DNA from: Bradyrhizobium diazoefficiens
GTDB lineage: Bacteria; Pseudomonadota; Alphaproteobacteria; Rhizobiales; Xanthobacteraceae
Direction: 5' to 3'
Length of the DNA: 64,000 bases
Assembly (NCBI RefSeq): GCF_016616885.1
Contig: NZ_CP067102.1
Span: 2,570,501-2,634,500, forward strand
The translations under genes were made by a program, and so were the position numbers. Shown here piece after piece: positions 40,109 to 44,337 of this stretch; position 1 is the stretch's first letter; each line of letters opens with the position of its first letter. The notes under the pieces were generated by a model. The model was not told the DNA's origin. It saw nothing but the letters and a program-made list of their open reading frames with translations, and ran no database searches.

Positions 40109-40281
40109 AGCAGGCGGGCCGCCCACGACCGTCCAATTCCGTCAGATCGAGATCGCTGACACCGACGCCTTCCGTGCCGCCGTCGATCCCGGTCGACGGC
40201 ACCTATCACGACGAGATCCTCATGGCGCGGCTCAGGGATGAGCTTGAGGCGGTGCGTCCTACTCCTCCGGCTCGGTCGTGA
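40105..40281 (+). CDS. Possible small protein coupled to the cyclase gene
   Basis: 58 codons from a GTG overlapping the cyclase stop (GTGA). The first half is Arg/Ser/Pro-rich; the second half holds a possible helix VDGTYHDEILMARLRDELEA. It ends 23 bases inside the convergent clpS gene. No binding site of its own beyond GGTGATGG, and no family. It may be non-coding chance sequence. Confidence 0.25.
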   Translation: MKQAGRPRPSNSVRSRSLTPTPSVPPSIPVDGTYHDEILMARLRDELEAVRPTPPARS

Positions 40282-40570
40282 ACAGCAGCGGATAGCCCTT
40301 GGCGCGGCCGGCGTCGGTGGCGCGGGTGGCCTTGGTCTCCGCGACGTCCTTGGTGAAGACGGCGACGACGCAGGCGCCGAGCTTGTGCGCGGTGATCATG
40401 ACCTTGTAGGCCTGATCCTCGGTCATGCGGAATTCGGCCTTGAGGATCATCGTGACGAACTCACGCGGCGTGTAGTCGTCGTTGATCAGGATGACCTTGT
40501 GCAGCTTTGGCCGCTCGACCTTGGTCCTGGTCCTGGTCCTGGTTTTCGGCGTGGTGACAGTGTCGTTCAT
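40259..40570 (-). CDS. clpS: ATP-dependent Clp protease adaptor ClpS
   Basis: 103 residues. A basic, Thr/Arg-repeat N-terminal tail (TRTRTRTKVERPKLHK), then the ClpS core: VILINDDYTPREFVTMILKA, EFRMTEDQAYKVMITAHKLG, ACVVAVFTKDVAETKATRAT. It delivers N-end-rule substrates to ClpAP. The hydrophobic pocket residues (NDD, T-x-EFV) are kept. No clpA follows, which suggests the second ClpS paralogue (ClpS2) that many alphaproteobacteria carry apart from the clpA-linked copy. Confidence 0.87.
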   Translation of the reverse strand: MNDTVTTPKTRTRTRTKVERPKLHKVILINDDYTPREFVTMILKAEFRMTEDQAYKVMITAHKLGACVVAVFTKDVAETKATRATDAGRAKGYPLLFTTEPEE

Positions 40571-40614: not shown

Positions 40615-40956
40615 TCAGCTCGCGGCTTTCGTACCATATTGGAGGACCTGCACCTTCTCCAAGGTGATCAGGCCGCTCGACATCATGCCGTCCAGGATGG
40701 GCAGGAATGCGTTGATGTTGTCCTCGCTGTCGACGATCTCGATCAACAGCGGCAGGTCTTCCGAAAGCCGCAGGATTTTCGAGGTGTGCAGCCGGCTCGA
40801 CTTGCCGAACCCCATCGGCCCGCGCAGCACGGTGGCACCCGCAAGGTGGCGCTCGCGCGCCGTCATCACGATCGCTTCATAGAGCGGCTTGCCGTCGAAA
40901 TGGTCGCTCTCGCCAATGAAGATGCGGAGTAAAACAGCCTGATTGGGGATCTGCAT
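40615..40956 (-). CDS. DUF190 family protein
   Basis: 113 residues from ATG 40956, after AGGAG. The PII-like fold of DUF190 is shown by QAVLLRIFIGESDHFDGKPL, YEAIVMTARERHLAGATVLR, GPMGFGKSSRLHTSKIL and DLPLLIEIVDSEDNINAFL. DUF190 genes often sit beside crcB, as here (2-base gap). Last gene of the fluoride operon. It may bind a nucleotide or ion and control the channel; not established. Confidence 0.85.
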   Translation of the reverse strand: MQIPNQAVLLRIFIGESDHFDGKPLYEAIVMTARERHLAGATVLRGPMGFGKSSRLHTSKILRLSEDLPLLIEIVDSEDNINAFLPILDGMMSSGLITLEKVQVLQYGTKAAS

Positions 40957-40958
40957 GG

Positions 40959-41384
40959 TCAACTCCTGGTCAAGCGGTTGTAGCGGCTCGCCATCATATG
41001 CCCAGCCCATACCGACACCAACCAGCAGCCGACGGACGCCGCGACATAGGCGAGTGCCGTGTATTTCATGCCGCCGTGAAACAGACGGAAAGTCTCCAGG
41101 CTGAATGTCGAGAAGGTGGTGTAGCCGCCGCAGAAGCCGGTCATGACGAACTGCCGGTGCTCAGGCCGCGCCAGCATGCGGCCGTCGGGGCCGGTCAGCG
41201 TCGCGTAGAAGCCGATGATGAGCGAGCCCGTCGCGTTGATGAACAGCGTCGCGAAGGGAAAGCCGGGGCCGGTGTCGAGGGTGAGTCCGGCCAGATAGCG
41301 GGTCAGCCCGCCGACAACGCTGCCGGCAGAAACCCAGGCATAGAGCATCGCCGTACGCCAGCGGTCGGCAGAGGAGGAATTCAT
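40959..41384 (-). CDS. crcB: Fluoride channel subunit CrcB/Fluc (second copy)
   Basis: 141 residues with four membrane helices. Family motifs are GSVVGGLTRYLAGLTLD, FPFATLFINATGSLIIGFYA (pore Asn) and GFCGGYTTFSTFSLETFRL (central sodium site and Phe box). Exports F- as a dimer. It is the partner of the copy immediately upstream (6-base gap); paired crcB genes often encode oppositely inserted subunits of a heterodimer. Confidence 0.9.
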   Translation of the reverse strand: MNSSSADRWRTAMLYAWVSAGSVVGGLTRYLAGLTLDTGPGFPFATLFINATGSLIIGFYATLTGPDGRMLARPEHRQFVMTGFCGGYTTFSTFSLETFRLFHGGMKYTALAYVAASVGCWLVSVWAGHMMASRYNRLTRS

Positions 41385-41390
41385 CTGCCT

Positions 41391-41780
41391 CTAGCCTCCC
41401 AGGCTGTCCGCAAGGAGGAAGCCGCAGCTCACAGCCGCGAGGCACAGTCCGACCGAGAACACGACATTGCCGAGTGCGTGCACCGGCTCACCGTTACGGG
41501 CGAGTGTCAGCGTTTGCAGGCTGAACGAGGACACTGTGGTGTAGCAGCCGAGGAAGCCCGTCACCGCGAATAGCCACGGATTGGGCGCGGCAAGCACCGA
41601 GCCGGAATGGGTCGCGAGCGCGCTGAAGATGCCGATCAGGAAGGCGCCGGTGACGTTGATTGTCATGGTGCCCCAGGGAAAGGTCTCGCCCAGCCGCCGC
41701 GCGATCACGCCGGAGACGAAATAGCGGGCGCAGCCGCCCAGCACGCTGCCGACCACGATTGCGATCACTCCGCTCAGCAC
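41391..41780 (-). CDS. crcB: Fluoride channel subunit CrcB/Fluc (first copy)
   Basis: 129 residues, four helices: GSVLGGCARYFVSGVIARRL, FPWGTMTINVTGAFLIGIFS (pore Asn) and GFLGCYTTVSSFSLQTLTLA (sodium site and Phe box). 19 bases behind the MFS gene in the riboswitch-controlled operon. With its neighbour it should form the fluoride exporter in the inner membrane. Confidence 0.9.
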   Translation of the reverse strand: MLSGVIAIVVGSVLGGCARYFVSGVIARRLGETFPWGTMTINVTGAFLIGIFSALATHSGSVLAAPNPWLFAVTGFLGCYTTVSSFSLQTLTLARNGEPVHALGNVVFSVGLCLAAVSCGFLLADSLGG

Positions 41781-41799
41781 GATGAATAGCCTCCCGTCC

Positions 41800-43008
41800 T
41801 CACTTGTTCTCCGTTGTCAGACCATTCCTGACAGCGAGCAGCCCCACGAGCGCGACCAGCGCGAAGCCGAGCCCGGCAAGGAACGTGACCGCCGGCCCAT
41901 AGGCATCCCATAGCGCGCCGGCGATCACGCTTGCGGCCAGCAGCGCAAGGCCCGTGAACAGGTTGAAATAGCCGAAGGCGGTGCCGCGCAAGTTTGGTGG
42001 TGCAGTATCGGCGACGAGCGCTGAGAGCAAGCCTTGAGTCAATCCCATGTGCAGGCCCCACAGCACGATGCCGAGCGCGAGGCCGGACAGACTAGGCAGC
42101 AGCGCGAGCACGAGGTCGGCGCCGGCGAGGAAGACCAGGCCAAGCGCGAGCAGGGCGGTCCGGTTGATCCGGTCCGACAGCACGCCTGCGGGATAGGCCG
42201 AGAGCGCATAAGTGATGTTCATCAGCACCAGCACCGCCGGCACCCACATCGCGTTGAGGCCGATGTTCTGCGCGCGCAGGATGAGGAAGGCCTCGCTGAA
42301 GCGGGCGAGCGTGAAGATGATGCCGACCGCGACGACGCGCCAGTACACGGGTCCAAGCTGCCGCATGGCGGCGGTGTTGAGTGGGTTCTTCGCGGGCTCG
42401 CGGCTAGCATCCGGCTCCGGCTCTTTGACCGCAAATGCGATCAGTCCGAAGGACAAGAACGCCGGCACCACGGCTACCCAGAACACGGTGGCAAAATGGT
42501 CCGCCGTCCACCACATCAGGCCGATTGCGGCGAGCGGGCCGACGAAAGCGCCGACCGTGTCGAGCGACTGCCGCAGGCCGAAGCTCGCGCCGCGCAGGCC
42601 GATGGGCGAGATGTCGGCGATCAGCGCATCGCGGGGCGCGCCGCGAATGCCCTTGCCGACGCGGTCGATGAAGCGCGCCGCGACCAGCCAGCCGACGCTG
42701 GGGGCGAGTGGGAACAGCGGCTTGGTCAGGGCGGCCAGGCCATAGCCGAGGGCGGCGAGCAGCTTGCGCCGGCCGAGCCAGTCCGACAATGCGCCGGAGA
42801 AGATCTTCGTGATCGAGGCGGTCGCCTCCGCGACGCCTTCGATAAAGCCGACGGTGAGCGTGGAGGCGCCGAGCACGGTGACGAGATAGACGGGCAGCAG
42901 CGCGTGGATCATCTCGGAGGAGATGTCCATCAGCATCGAGACGAAGCCGAGCACCCAGATTCCCCTGGGTAGCCTGGTGCGCGAAACAGTCGGTGTGGTC
43001 GTCGTCAC
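41800..43008 (-). CDS. MFS transporter in the fluoride operon
   Basis: 402 residues, 12 hydrophobic helices. It has MFS loop motifs GALSDWLGRRKLLAALGYG and RFIDRVGKGIRGAPRDALIA between helices, with the second half opening at VYWRVVAVGIIFTLARFSEA. The sequence SMLMDISSEMIHALLPVYLV at the first helix is typical of a poorly studied MFS group. Being the first gene behind the fluoride riboswitch, it is likely tied to fluoride tolerance or to a fluoride-linked metabolite. Its substrate is unknown. Confidence 0.85.
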   Translation of the reverse strand: MTTTTPTVSRTRLPRGIWVLGFVSMLMDISSEMIHALLPVYLVTVLGASTLTVGFIEGVAEATASITKIFSGALSDWLGRRKLLAALGYGLAALTKPLFPLAPSVGWLVAARFIDRVGKGIRGAPRDALIADISPIGLRGASFGLRQSLDTVGAFVGPLAAIGLMWWTADHFATVFWVAVVPAFLSFGLIAFAVKEPEPDASREPAKNPLNTAAMRQLGPVYWRVVAVGIIFTLARFSEAFLILRAQNIGLNAMWVPAVLVLMNITYALSAYPAGVLSDRINRTALLALGLVFLAGADLVLALLPSLSGLALGIVLWGLHMGLTQGLLSALVADTAPPNLRGTAFGYFNLFTGLALLAASVIAGALWDAYGPAVTFLAGLGFALVALVGLLAVRNGLTTENK

Positions 43009-43032
43009 GTCCTGACCTTCGTTTCAGGCAAC

Positions 43033-43056
43033 AAAAAACCCGCCACCGGCGGGCTT
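43033..43056 (-). terminator. Intrinsic terminator of the fluoride riboswitch
   Basis: On the minus strand a stem CCCGCC/GGCGGG with a 3-base loop is followed by TTTTTT, 45 bases downstream of the aptamer and 25 bases before the MFS start. This is the expression platform: it should stop transcription when fluoride is absent. Confidence 0.8.
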
Positions 43057-43100
43057 GTCCATGCTCCCGCCAAAGGCAGAGACTGATTGCCTCGCCTCGA

Positions 43101-43166
43101 GCAGCAGTCATCAGCCCACTACGGTCATGCGACCGCCGGGCGGTTGTTCGGGGGACTCCATCCCCG
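43101..43166 (-). promoter_or_regulatory. Fluoride riboswitch (crcB motif)
   Basis: Minus strand from 43166: GGGGATGGAGTCCCCC (first stem-loop), ACAACCGCC, then GGCTGATGACTGCTGC ending at 43101. These match the conserved blocks of the fluoride aptamer: GGNGATGG in the first loop, the ACCGCC stem, and CTGATGACT. AGTC of the first loop can pair with GACT of the last block, the expected pseudoknot. It precedes a terminator and an operon with two crcB genes. Confidence 0.88.
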
Positions 43167-43216
43167 TCTGTGCAGTCAGCCTAGCATGGAAATGGCGTGG
43201 AACAAGAGATGTCCCC

Positions 43217-43316
43217 CGTCATTCCGGGGCGATGCGCAGCATCGAGCTCCGGTGCGCAATTGCGCTCCTGAGAATCTCGAGATTCCGGGTTCTCGCTTCG
43301 CGAGCCCCGGAATGAC
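43217..43316. repeat. Palindromic repeat C, copy 2
   Basis: GTCATTCCGGGG (43218-43229) and CCCCGGAATGAC (43305-43316) are exact inverses bounding a 75-base block that contains GGTGCGCAATTGCGCTCC, itself palindromic. The GCGCAATTGCGC core also appears inside repeat B at 22941 and near 47330. Confidence 0.65.
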
Positions 43317-43479
43317 TTGTATGTTGTCACGCGTCTTCCTGCGGCACGACCATGGCGACGCAGCGGCATTCTTGCGCAAGCTCGCAAATCTCTAACCTGA
43401 ATGTGAAGCACAAGCGATCTTCGCGCTTTGCGGCAAGGCGTTTGCATGTCACCATCGCGTCATACGACGGGAGACTGCG

Positions 43480-44337
43480 ATGCGATTGCTGTTCTCGATC
43501 GGGGCTGTGCTGGTGGCCGGCGTGCTTGCTGGAGGGGATGTCGCGGGCGTCGCGGCACCAGGGCCAAAATTACATCAACCGCAGCGACAGGCGGCCGACG
43601 GTGATGCGCAATCGGTCGATGTCGAGCTGATCCTCGCGGTTGACGTCTCCTATTCCATGGACATGGATGAGCTCGCGGTCCAGCGCGAGGGTTATGCGCT
43701 GGCGATCCAGTCCAAGGAGTTTTTGCAGGCGCTGAAGGTCGGCCCCAATGGCAGGATCGCGGTGACCTATTTCGAATGGGCTGCATCCTCCGATCAGAAG
43801 ATCATCATCCCGTGGCGCCTCATCGACGGACCGGAGACGGCGGACGCGGTCGCCGCCGAGATCTTGAAGACGCCGATCCGGCGCGCCTCACGCACCTCGA
43901 TCTCCGGCGCGATCGGATTTGCGATGCCGCTGTTCGATGAGGATCCCTATCGCGGGATTCGCCGCGTCATCGACATCTCCGGCGACGGCCCCAACAACAA
44001 TGGCGGCCCGGTCACCGTGGCGCGCGACGCCGCACTCGAGAAAGGCGTCGTCATCAACGGCCTGCCGATCATGGTCAAGGAGCCGTCCTATTCGACCATG
44101 GATATCGACAATCTCGATTACTACTACGAAGACTGCGTCGTCGGCGGTCCCGGCTCCTTCGTCATCGCGATCAAGGATCGCGACAAGTTCAAGGAAGCGA
44201 TCCGGACCAAGCTGCTGATGGAAGTCGCCGGCCGCACGCCCGACCGTCCGGTGGTGCACGCTGCGGACAAGGAGAAAGAGCCGCGCGTGAACTGCATGAT
44301 CGGCGAGAAGATCTGGTCGGATCGCTGGGGCCGCTGA
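43480..44337 (+). CDS. DUF1194 von Willebrand factor A-like secreted protein
   Basis: 285 residues. A signal peptide (LLFSIGAVLVAGVLAGGDVA) is followed by a vWA domain with the metal-ion site DVSYSMD in VELILAVDVSYSMDMDELAV, the Thr in RRASRTSISGAIGFAMPLF, and the acidic RRVIDISGDGPNNNGG. The C-terminal part (NLDYYYEDCVVGGPGSFVIA) is typical of DUF1194. Periplasmic, probably a protein- or ligand-binding module. Stands alone behind a repeat. Confidence 0.85.
   Translation: MRLLFSIGAVLVAGVLAGGDVAGVAAPGPKLHQPQRQAADGDAQSVDVELILAVDVSYSMDMDELAVQREGYALAIQSKEFLQALKVGPNGRIAVTYFEWAASSDQKIIIPWRLIDGPETADAVAAEILKTPIRRASRTSISGAIGFAMPLFDEDPYRGIRRVIDISGDGPNNNGGPVTVARDAALEKGVVINGLPIMVKEPSYSTMDIDNLDYYYEDCVVGGPGSFVIAIKDRDKFKEAIRTKLLMEVAGRTPDRPVVHAADKEKEPRVNCMIGEKIWSDRWGR

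Follow-up and report, generated by a model that had tools for sequence, protein, structure and literature searches.

We analysed a 64,000-nucleotide stretch of the Bradyrhizobium diazoefficiens genome (NZ_CP067102.1, positions 2,570,501 to 2,634,500; hereafter the window). On its minus strand, a fluoride riboswitch aptamer and a terminator precede four genes encoding a major facilitator superfamily (MFS) transporter, two CrcB (Fluc) channel subunits and a DUF190 protein; the aptamer, the terminator and the genes are conserved in relatives. We propose, with a probability of about 0.6, that they form a fluoride-induced resistance operon. In this operon a terminator switch would control a CrcB heterodimer, a DUF190 protein that adjusts the exporter, and an accessory MFS transporter for a substrate other than fluoride. 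The link between riboswitch and MFS is a conserved variant at the level of the genus, and that between DUF190 and fluoride exporters is more general and more testable.

A fluoride riboswitch and a candidate terminator switch

An Rfam search of the window at gathering thresholds matched the RF01734 covariance model over its full length (model positions 1-64), confirming the minus-strand fluoride riboswitch proposed in an earlier sequence-only reading of this DNA; the sole other Rfam match was a tRNA. Across the genome's single 8.09 Mb contig, RF01734 exceeded its cut-off once, with a runner-up of 16.8 bits. A chance match is ruled out by the E-value, by the scores of 44.1 and 16.8 bits for these two sites and by conservation in the genus. 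The complete six-pair pseudoknot is found in 39 of the 41 aligned leaders when G-U pairs are allowed (37 by regular expression, plus two misregistered rows that were re-read); one further leader, L057, was excluded because its contig begins too close.

Downstream of the aptamer, a terminator-like stem (43056-43036) with a run of six T was the single such site in positions 42900-43500, where 0.5 were expected in shuffled sequences. It had also been placed before the genes by the sequence-only reading. As in other RF01734 members, the expression platform lies upstream of fluoride-resistance genes. The segments GGCGGGAGCATGG and CCCGCC-N3-GGCGGGTTTTTT are nearly invariant across the 41 leaders. 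We folded four leaders, those of the window and three relatives, using removal of the pseudoknot strand as a stand-in for fluoride binding. In folds that ended at CCCGCC, the pseudoknot strand, when free, paired with GGGAGCA-UGGA in all four. When the strand was removed at this stage, GGCGGG paired with CCCGCC to give an antiterminator, again in all four. This suggests that the leader works as a terminator/antiterminator switch. In the absence of fluoride, the pseudoknot's 3' strand (ACUCC-UGCU) would pair with GGGAGCA-UGGA, and CCCGCC would then pair with the second GGCGGG, stopping transcription. With fluoride, the 3' strand would be kept in the aptamer and the first GGCGGG would capture CCCGCC, allowing RNA polymerase to read through.

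Just 5' of the aptamer is a promoter-like block that is largely conserved in the aligned leaders. Because a sigma-70 consensus scan found no promoter at the leader, this block is treated here as a putative promoter. A perfect 13-nt inverted repeat (GTCATTCCGGGGC / GCCCCGGAATGAC; window positions 43218-43316, 73 nt between the arms) also lies upstream of the riboswitch; its gene-proximal arm does not appear in the consensus sequence of leaders from relatives.

The four genes and their place in the genome

The four genes match MFS_1, CRCB (twice) and DUF190 of Pfam and are separated by gaps of 19, 6 and 2 bases, in agreement with the tight packing noted earlier (Table 1). The DUF190 frame is taken as 40956-40615, which gives the 113 aa seen in homologues; a longer ATG frame at 41010 was set aside. 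The neighbouring clpS gene begins 44 bases past DUF190 and lies on the downstream side in 40 of the 42 loci that have a close MFS orthologue, the exceptions being L058, which ends at a contig end, and L081, which has clpS upstream. No CRCB match in the genome other than these two crcB genes exceeds the cut-off, the third match scoring 23.3 bits, and DUF190 is the genome's single PF02641 match. There are three CLC matches (L361-L363), and the one protein that was read (L361) has GREGP instead of the fluoride signature GREGT. Since the crcB genes are the only ones and this CLC carries GREGP, the operon is probably, though not certainly, the strain's main fluoride exporter.

Table 1. Features of the fluoride operon and its surroundings (window positions)
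Feature	Position	Strand	Evidence
Promoter-like block just 5' of the aptamer, TTGT...TTTCCATGCTAGG	43177..43206 (approximate)	minus	largely conserved in 41 aligned leaders
Fluoride riboswitch aptamer, RF01734	43095..43174	minus	44.1 bits, cut-off 34, E 6.1e-9
Expression platform: predicted antiterminator GGCGGG/CCCGCC and overlapping terminator CCCGCC/GGCGGG with six T	43033..43071	minus	terminator scan, conservation, folding
MFS transporter, 402 aa, GTG start	41800..43008	minus	PF07690 168.6 bits
crcB1, Fluc subunit, N-out-type charge bias, 129 aa	41391..41780	minus	PF02537 88.5, NF010799 218.9 bits
crcB2, Fluc subunit, N-in-type charge bias, 141 aa	40959..41384	minus	PF02537 91.7
DUF190 PII-like protein, 113 aa	40615..40956	minus	PF02641 137.7; solved relatives 2dcl, 1o51
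clpS, neighbour with conserved position	40259..40570	minus	PF02617 85.1

The two CrcB proteins have the signature of a heterodimeric channel

Both proteins clear the PF02537 cut-off of 32.9, and CrcB1 also exceeds its NCBIfam equivalog thresholds (NF010799, 218.9 against 129; TIGR00494, 90.7 against 80.45). Quantification of the lysine plus arginine charge bias in 30 pairs, including that of the window, gave a mean of -2.9 for CrcB1 (range -5 to 2) and +4.6 for CrcB2 (2 to 6), compared to -0.8 (-4 to 4) for 12 single crcB genes; these include the CrcB1 of L058, which lies at the end of its contig. The adjacent paralogues thus carry opposite topology signals, as judged from charge bias, which is expected of an obligate antiparallel heterodimer rather than of a dual-topology homodimer. 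At the position of the first Phe of the CrcB2 TTFS motif, CrcB1 has V in 30 of 30 cases, a change that might silence one pore. From their charge bias, CrcB1 and CrcB2 may be expected to form an antiparallel heterodimeric fluoride channel.

Of the 42 loci with a close MFS orthologue, 29 carry crcB1-crcB2-DUF190 and 11 carry a lone divergent crcB without DUF190; of the remaining two, one runs into a contig end and the other lacks crcB. Pair and single crcB states are interspersed in the MFS tree, requiring 9 parsimony changes, at least 2 of them forced by well-supported branches. The crcB pair and DUF190 are gained or lost together (both in the 29 loci, neither in the 11), while the riboswitch and the MFS remain. 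Because of this joint variation, we take the coupling partner of DUF190 to be the channel rather than the MFS.

DUF190 accompanies two unrelated classes of fluoride exporter

The window's DUF190 protein scored 137.7 against the PF02641 cut-off of 23.4 and matched the solved members 2dcl (E 3.9e-28) and 1o51 (E 2.6e-22), whose folds we take to be PII-like. A sample of 199 genomes of the order gave 33 PF02641 matches; the loci of all but two of these (G184 and G095) were fetched, and the second G150 match was seen only within L122. All 13 strong matches (at least 82 bits) adjoin crcB, none of the 16 weak stand-alone matches that were fetched had a crcB within ~1.5 kb, and two matches sit inside CLC frames. 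DUF190 was present with 9 of 12 adjacent crcB pairs compared to 4 of ~195 single crcB genes, in a tally of 219 crcB matches counted by hand from a table.

At the level of the phylum, 18 of 71 riboswitch loci (18 of 63 genomes) include DUF190 in the operon, 13 of them with CrcB and five with CLC. Seventeen of these came from a scan of up to 4.7 kb behind all 71 riboswitch matches (four with CLC, one at 20 bits, or 27.7 by Pfam). The eighteenth, L325, has a Pfam score of 23.1 bits that reaches the cut-off only with its neighbours, and its CLC is split over two frames. Before this full scan, 28 of 106 phylum DUF190 matches, chosen by eye, had been compared with riboswitches.

In two Labrys-type genomes, a CLC protein directly behind the riboswitch carries a C-terminal DUF190 domain (23.1 and 25.3 bits; cut-off 23.4). 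For this fusion, a profile comparison gave 96.7% probability (E 3.2e-10). Both Pfam domains were detected in 115 of the best 120 of 7999 homologues scored (at least 58% identity), all close relatives, to which this share applies; the five without both include the Labrys sp. WJW protein itself. The motifs GNNLI, GREGT and GEVTP, which are CLC-F signatures according to the main text of a 2024 review (PMC11139923), are present in the Labrys CLC of L123, in columns that are invariant or nearly so in 42 aligned rows. Two further loci (L272 and L274, in G485 and G414) have a DUF190 gene, a fluoride riboswitch, a CLC gene and a second DUF190 gene in a row on one strand.

The sequence-only reading had suggested that DUF190 may control the channel. 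Its link to CrcB, and to CLC-F by adjacency and fusion, strengthens this suggestion, while regulation itself is something we infer. DUF190 would be a PII-like partner that senses a cell signal, by analogy a nucleotide, and adjusts exporter activity. Tentatively, and at somewhat less than even odds, it may be an effector-responsive gate of two unrelated families, acting on Fluc in trans and on CLC-F in trans or as a fused domain. According to the review, natural protein-level regulation of fluoride channels has yet to be identified (PMC11139923). Searches of open-access papers, with subscription papers and preprints outside our scope, revealed no publication that connects DUF190 or PII-like proteins with fluoride riboswitches, crcB or fluoride channels, one retrieved paper being unrelated, and none on fluoride riboswitches in Labrys.

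The riboswitch-MFS arrangement is conserved within the genus

From a scan of the genome collection the best 80 MFS loci were retained, and their upstream regions were searched with a riboswitch model built in this analysis. The aptamer was found upstream in 40, all Bradyrhizobium-type with MFS identities of 82-92%. The other 40 comprise L057, whose contig begins too close, and 39 more distant loci with no riboswitch below E 0.1; one 13.8-bit match among these (E 0.4) was discounted, as it lies on the opposite strand inside the MFS gene. In 146 genomes of the genus there were 137 riboswitch matches, in 111 genomes, and 108 genomes had the MFS at E 1e-150 or better. A riboswitch lies within 400 nt upstream of 77 of the 78 Bradyrhizobium MFS genes with at least 82% identity, and of 0 of 31 genus MFS genes with 66-79%; 60 of the riboswitch matches lie away from the MFS. 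None of the listed genus orthologues has an internal stop. The exception (G672; L375, G672:C1:5951100-5955000) has its promoter-like block joined to the terminator with the aptamer missing, and retains the MFS, two crcB and DUF190; this is an apparent natural loss of the aptamer.

Across 398 genomes of the phylum we found 71 riboswitch matches (E 1e-4 or better) in 63 genomes. An MFS of the window type follows seven of them, all in this genus, which has eight of the matches; this count leaves out two 20-21 bit matches elsewhere. The arrangement, with the MFS-crcB adjacency that the sequence-only reading had proposed to look for in other genomes, is conserved in the genus. Among the 39 distant loci only L104 (Alsobacter soli) has crcB and DUF190 adjoining the MFS (tblastn with the window proteins). 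A general MFS-crcB partnership was rejected, since the 39 distant loci also have no riboswitch below E 0.1.

A distant MFS (29% identity) sits behind a separate fluoride riboswitch in a fluoride resistance island of a Labrys-type genome, probably that of Labrys sp. WJW. This island has seven riboswitch matches in ~19 kb (L121 7565 to L122 ~8872; G150:C22:157565-176872) and encodes an MFS, a universal stress protein, a Proton_antipo_M subunit, two MutS_V proteins, the CLC-DUF190 protein, a phosphatase and an enolase. Within the genus, the draft genome G611 (C15, C134; L364, L365, L366) has 11 fluoride riboswitch matches, in L366 riboswitches lie on both sides of crcB-crcB-DUF190, and in L365 a single crcB is followed by DUF190. 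The riboswitch-linked genes named in the main texts of the review and of a study of Enterobacter cloacae FRM (PMC11139923, PMC5533749) are exporters, Na+/H+ antiporters, pyrophosphatase, enolase and others; the word MFS is absent from both main texts, and facilitator is absent from the latter.

The MFS protein is a family member of PF07690 (168.6 bits, cut-off 33.4). Its 21 NCBIfam matches are all far under their cut-offs and place it in no named subgroup, so the description of an uncharacterised MFS group behind the riboswitch holds. Among solved structures, NorA is the closest to it in sequence (E 1e-6). Neighbours were surveyed at 36 of the distant loci (L084, L085 and L103 were excluded because the gene caller missed the MFS). 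In five of the 36, with 65-70% identity and from several genera, a ChrB-like gene precedes and a PAP2-like gene follows the MFS; Pfam confirmed ChrB_N and PAP2 on L087 alone, and the other four were assigned by BLAST cluster. In L087 (2319-4696) the ChrB_N, MFS and PAP2 genes are consecutive, a possible toxic-ion resistance cassette. This toxic-ion setting of its relatives suggests that the MFS effluxes some substrate. A crcB pair should be enough as a fluoride exporter, and fluoride itself is unlikely as the MFS substrate because the operon already contains such a pair. In Pseudomonas putida, BenE-I overexpression raised fluoride tolerance and internal fluoride was not lowered, in a text that makes no MFS claim (PMC13104614), which indicates that a transporter can matter without moving fluoride. 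The MFS may likewise be an accessory secondary transporter for something other than fluoride that is important in fluoride stress.

Alternative explanations

Several observations weigh against the proposed operon model, beginning with the leader. In its six-pair register, GGAGUC/GACUGC, the window's pseudoknot has five of six pairs and one G.G mismatch; the AGTC/GACT pairing described earlier is the intact part of this register, and the mismatch had been overlooked. At the mismatched position, which has to pair with G both in the pseudoknot and in the predicted competing helix, most relatives have C, two leaders have T (still able to pair with G) and only the window has G, so this strain's switch may be weaker. 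In the free state at the CCCGCC stage, CCCGC of the window leader also pairs with aptamer GUGGGCU, unlike in the three relatives. Once the full terminator is present it is the lowest-energy fold in 4 of 4 leaders, which would make the ON state a kinetic one. A switch so impaired that the operon has lost its proper fluoride response is a real possibility, although we lean against it. The loss of the aptamer in G672, with terminator and genes kept, also speaks for it; on the other side, the window's aptamer scores above the Rfam cut-off, the gene frames are intact, and the leader of L076 also carries one pseudoknot mismatch. For the channel, CrcB2 falls under its NCBIfam cut-offs (NF010802, 128.9 against 140; TIGR00494, narrowly, 79.4 against 80.45), and the crcB states cluster on the MFS tree no more than shuffled labels do. 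For DUF190, the Fisher p of 9e-11 for pairs against single genes ignores relatedness, and most crcB loci have no DUF190. DUF190 also occurs with a single crcB in four order loci and L365, and in L367 with no crcB found, so its link to the pair is not strict. In the loci inspected (L196, L201, L206, L214; Pfam on L214 only), the largest phylum clade (family f81) has Crp-like regulators rather than transporters as neighbours, which slightly lowered our confidence in the gate. Other DUF190 genes adjoin CDF, RND or P-type ATPase metal-efflux genes or Sbt_1. In L201, L206 and L214, DUF190 is followed directly by a Crp-like cyclic-nucleotide-binding regulator. These Crp-like, metal-efflux and Sbt_1 neighbourhoods led us to reject DUF190 as a fluoride-only family. 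The Crp-like and metal-efflux neighbourhoods also speak for DUF190 as an assembly factor or a stress sensor acting elsewhere, for example on metals or gene expression; we regard this as doubtful, given that fusion to the CLC-F C-terminus puts DUF190 physically on an exporter and that every strong match in the order adjoins crcB.

The place of the MFS can also be explained otherwise. The riboswitch might have been acquired to control crcB, leaving the MFS as a passenger that plays no part in fluoride stress. Most of the broad MFS family has no link to fluoride, Bradyrhizobium lablabi (L081) keeps an MFS beside clpS without crcB or riboswitch, and some of the 60 riboswitches lying elsewhere in the genus precede crcB without this MFS. 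A passenger at the head of the operon would be expected to disappear from some genomes, however, and the near-universal retention directly behind the riboswitch, with reading frames free of stops, makes this explanation unlikely. Still less probable, in our view, is that the MFS is itself the exporter of fluoride or a fluorinated compound, as the sequence-only reading had suggested, with crcB as a backup. Its first position in 77 of 78 close orthologues, its persistence when the crcB cassette differs and the distant MFS of the Labrys-type island would fit such a role. Against it are the restriction of the arrangement to 7 of 71 riboswitch matches, all in one genus, the single distant locus beside crcB and DUF190 (1 of 39), the ChrB-like and PAP2-like neighbours, and the literature listings and main text of the review (PMC11139923), which contain no characterised fluoride-transporting MFS.

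A channel driven by membrane potential alone could admit fluoride in a de-energised cell. If DUF190 does gate the exporter, it could shut the channel when membrane potential or ATP drops, and would be the first natural protein-level regulation of fluoride export. As a small PII-like protein found alongside both bacterial classes of exporter under fluoride riboswitches, DUF190 offers a concrete candidate for in vitro testing, and the riboswitch-linked MFS is a conserved, unstudied addition to the fluoride regulon of a large plant-symbiont genus.

Comparison with known systems

The leader resembles other fluoride riboswitches (crcB motif, RF01734) in its conserved aptamer blocks, its score over the cut-off, its terminator and its position upstream of a fluoride exporter operon. 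It differs in having an MFS as first gene, in the one pseudoknot mismatch of this strain and in a second hairpin longer than in most other aligned sequences. The fluoride operon of E. cloacae FRM is likewise a multi-gene operon with crcB under a fluoride riboswitch, in which knock-outs and complementation indicated a contribution of the accessory genes; these are ppaC, uspA, eno, gpmA and orf5249, unlike the MFS and DUF190 genes of the window (PMC5533749, main text). Heterodimeric Fluc channels are considerably rarer in Gram-negatives according to the main text of the review (PMC11139923). The window resembles them in its two adjoining crcB genes with opposite charge bias, but here the pair is accompanied by DUF190.

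For DUF190, two further systems offer a comparison. SbtB is a PII-like regulator of the bicarbonate transporter SbtA and a precedent for a PII-like protein acting on a neighbouring transporter. As in SbtA/SbtB, a small PII-like protein is encoded beside a transporter in the window, and the two weak PF02641 loci tested (L172 and L178) themselves adjoin Sbt_1 genes. In contrast, the window's DUF190 has a strong score and lies next to a fluoride channel. The closest parallel in arrangement is the CLC-F with C-terminal DUF190 of Labrys and others, which also combines a PII-like domain and a fluoride exporter behind a fluoride riboswitch, but does so in a single fused protein whose exporter family is unrelated to Fluc.

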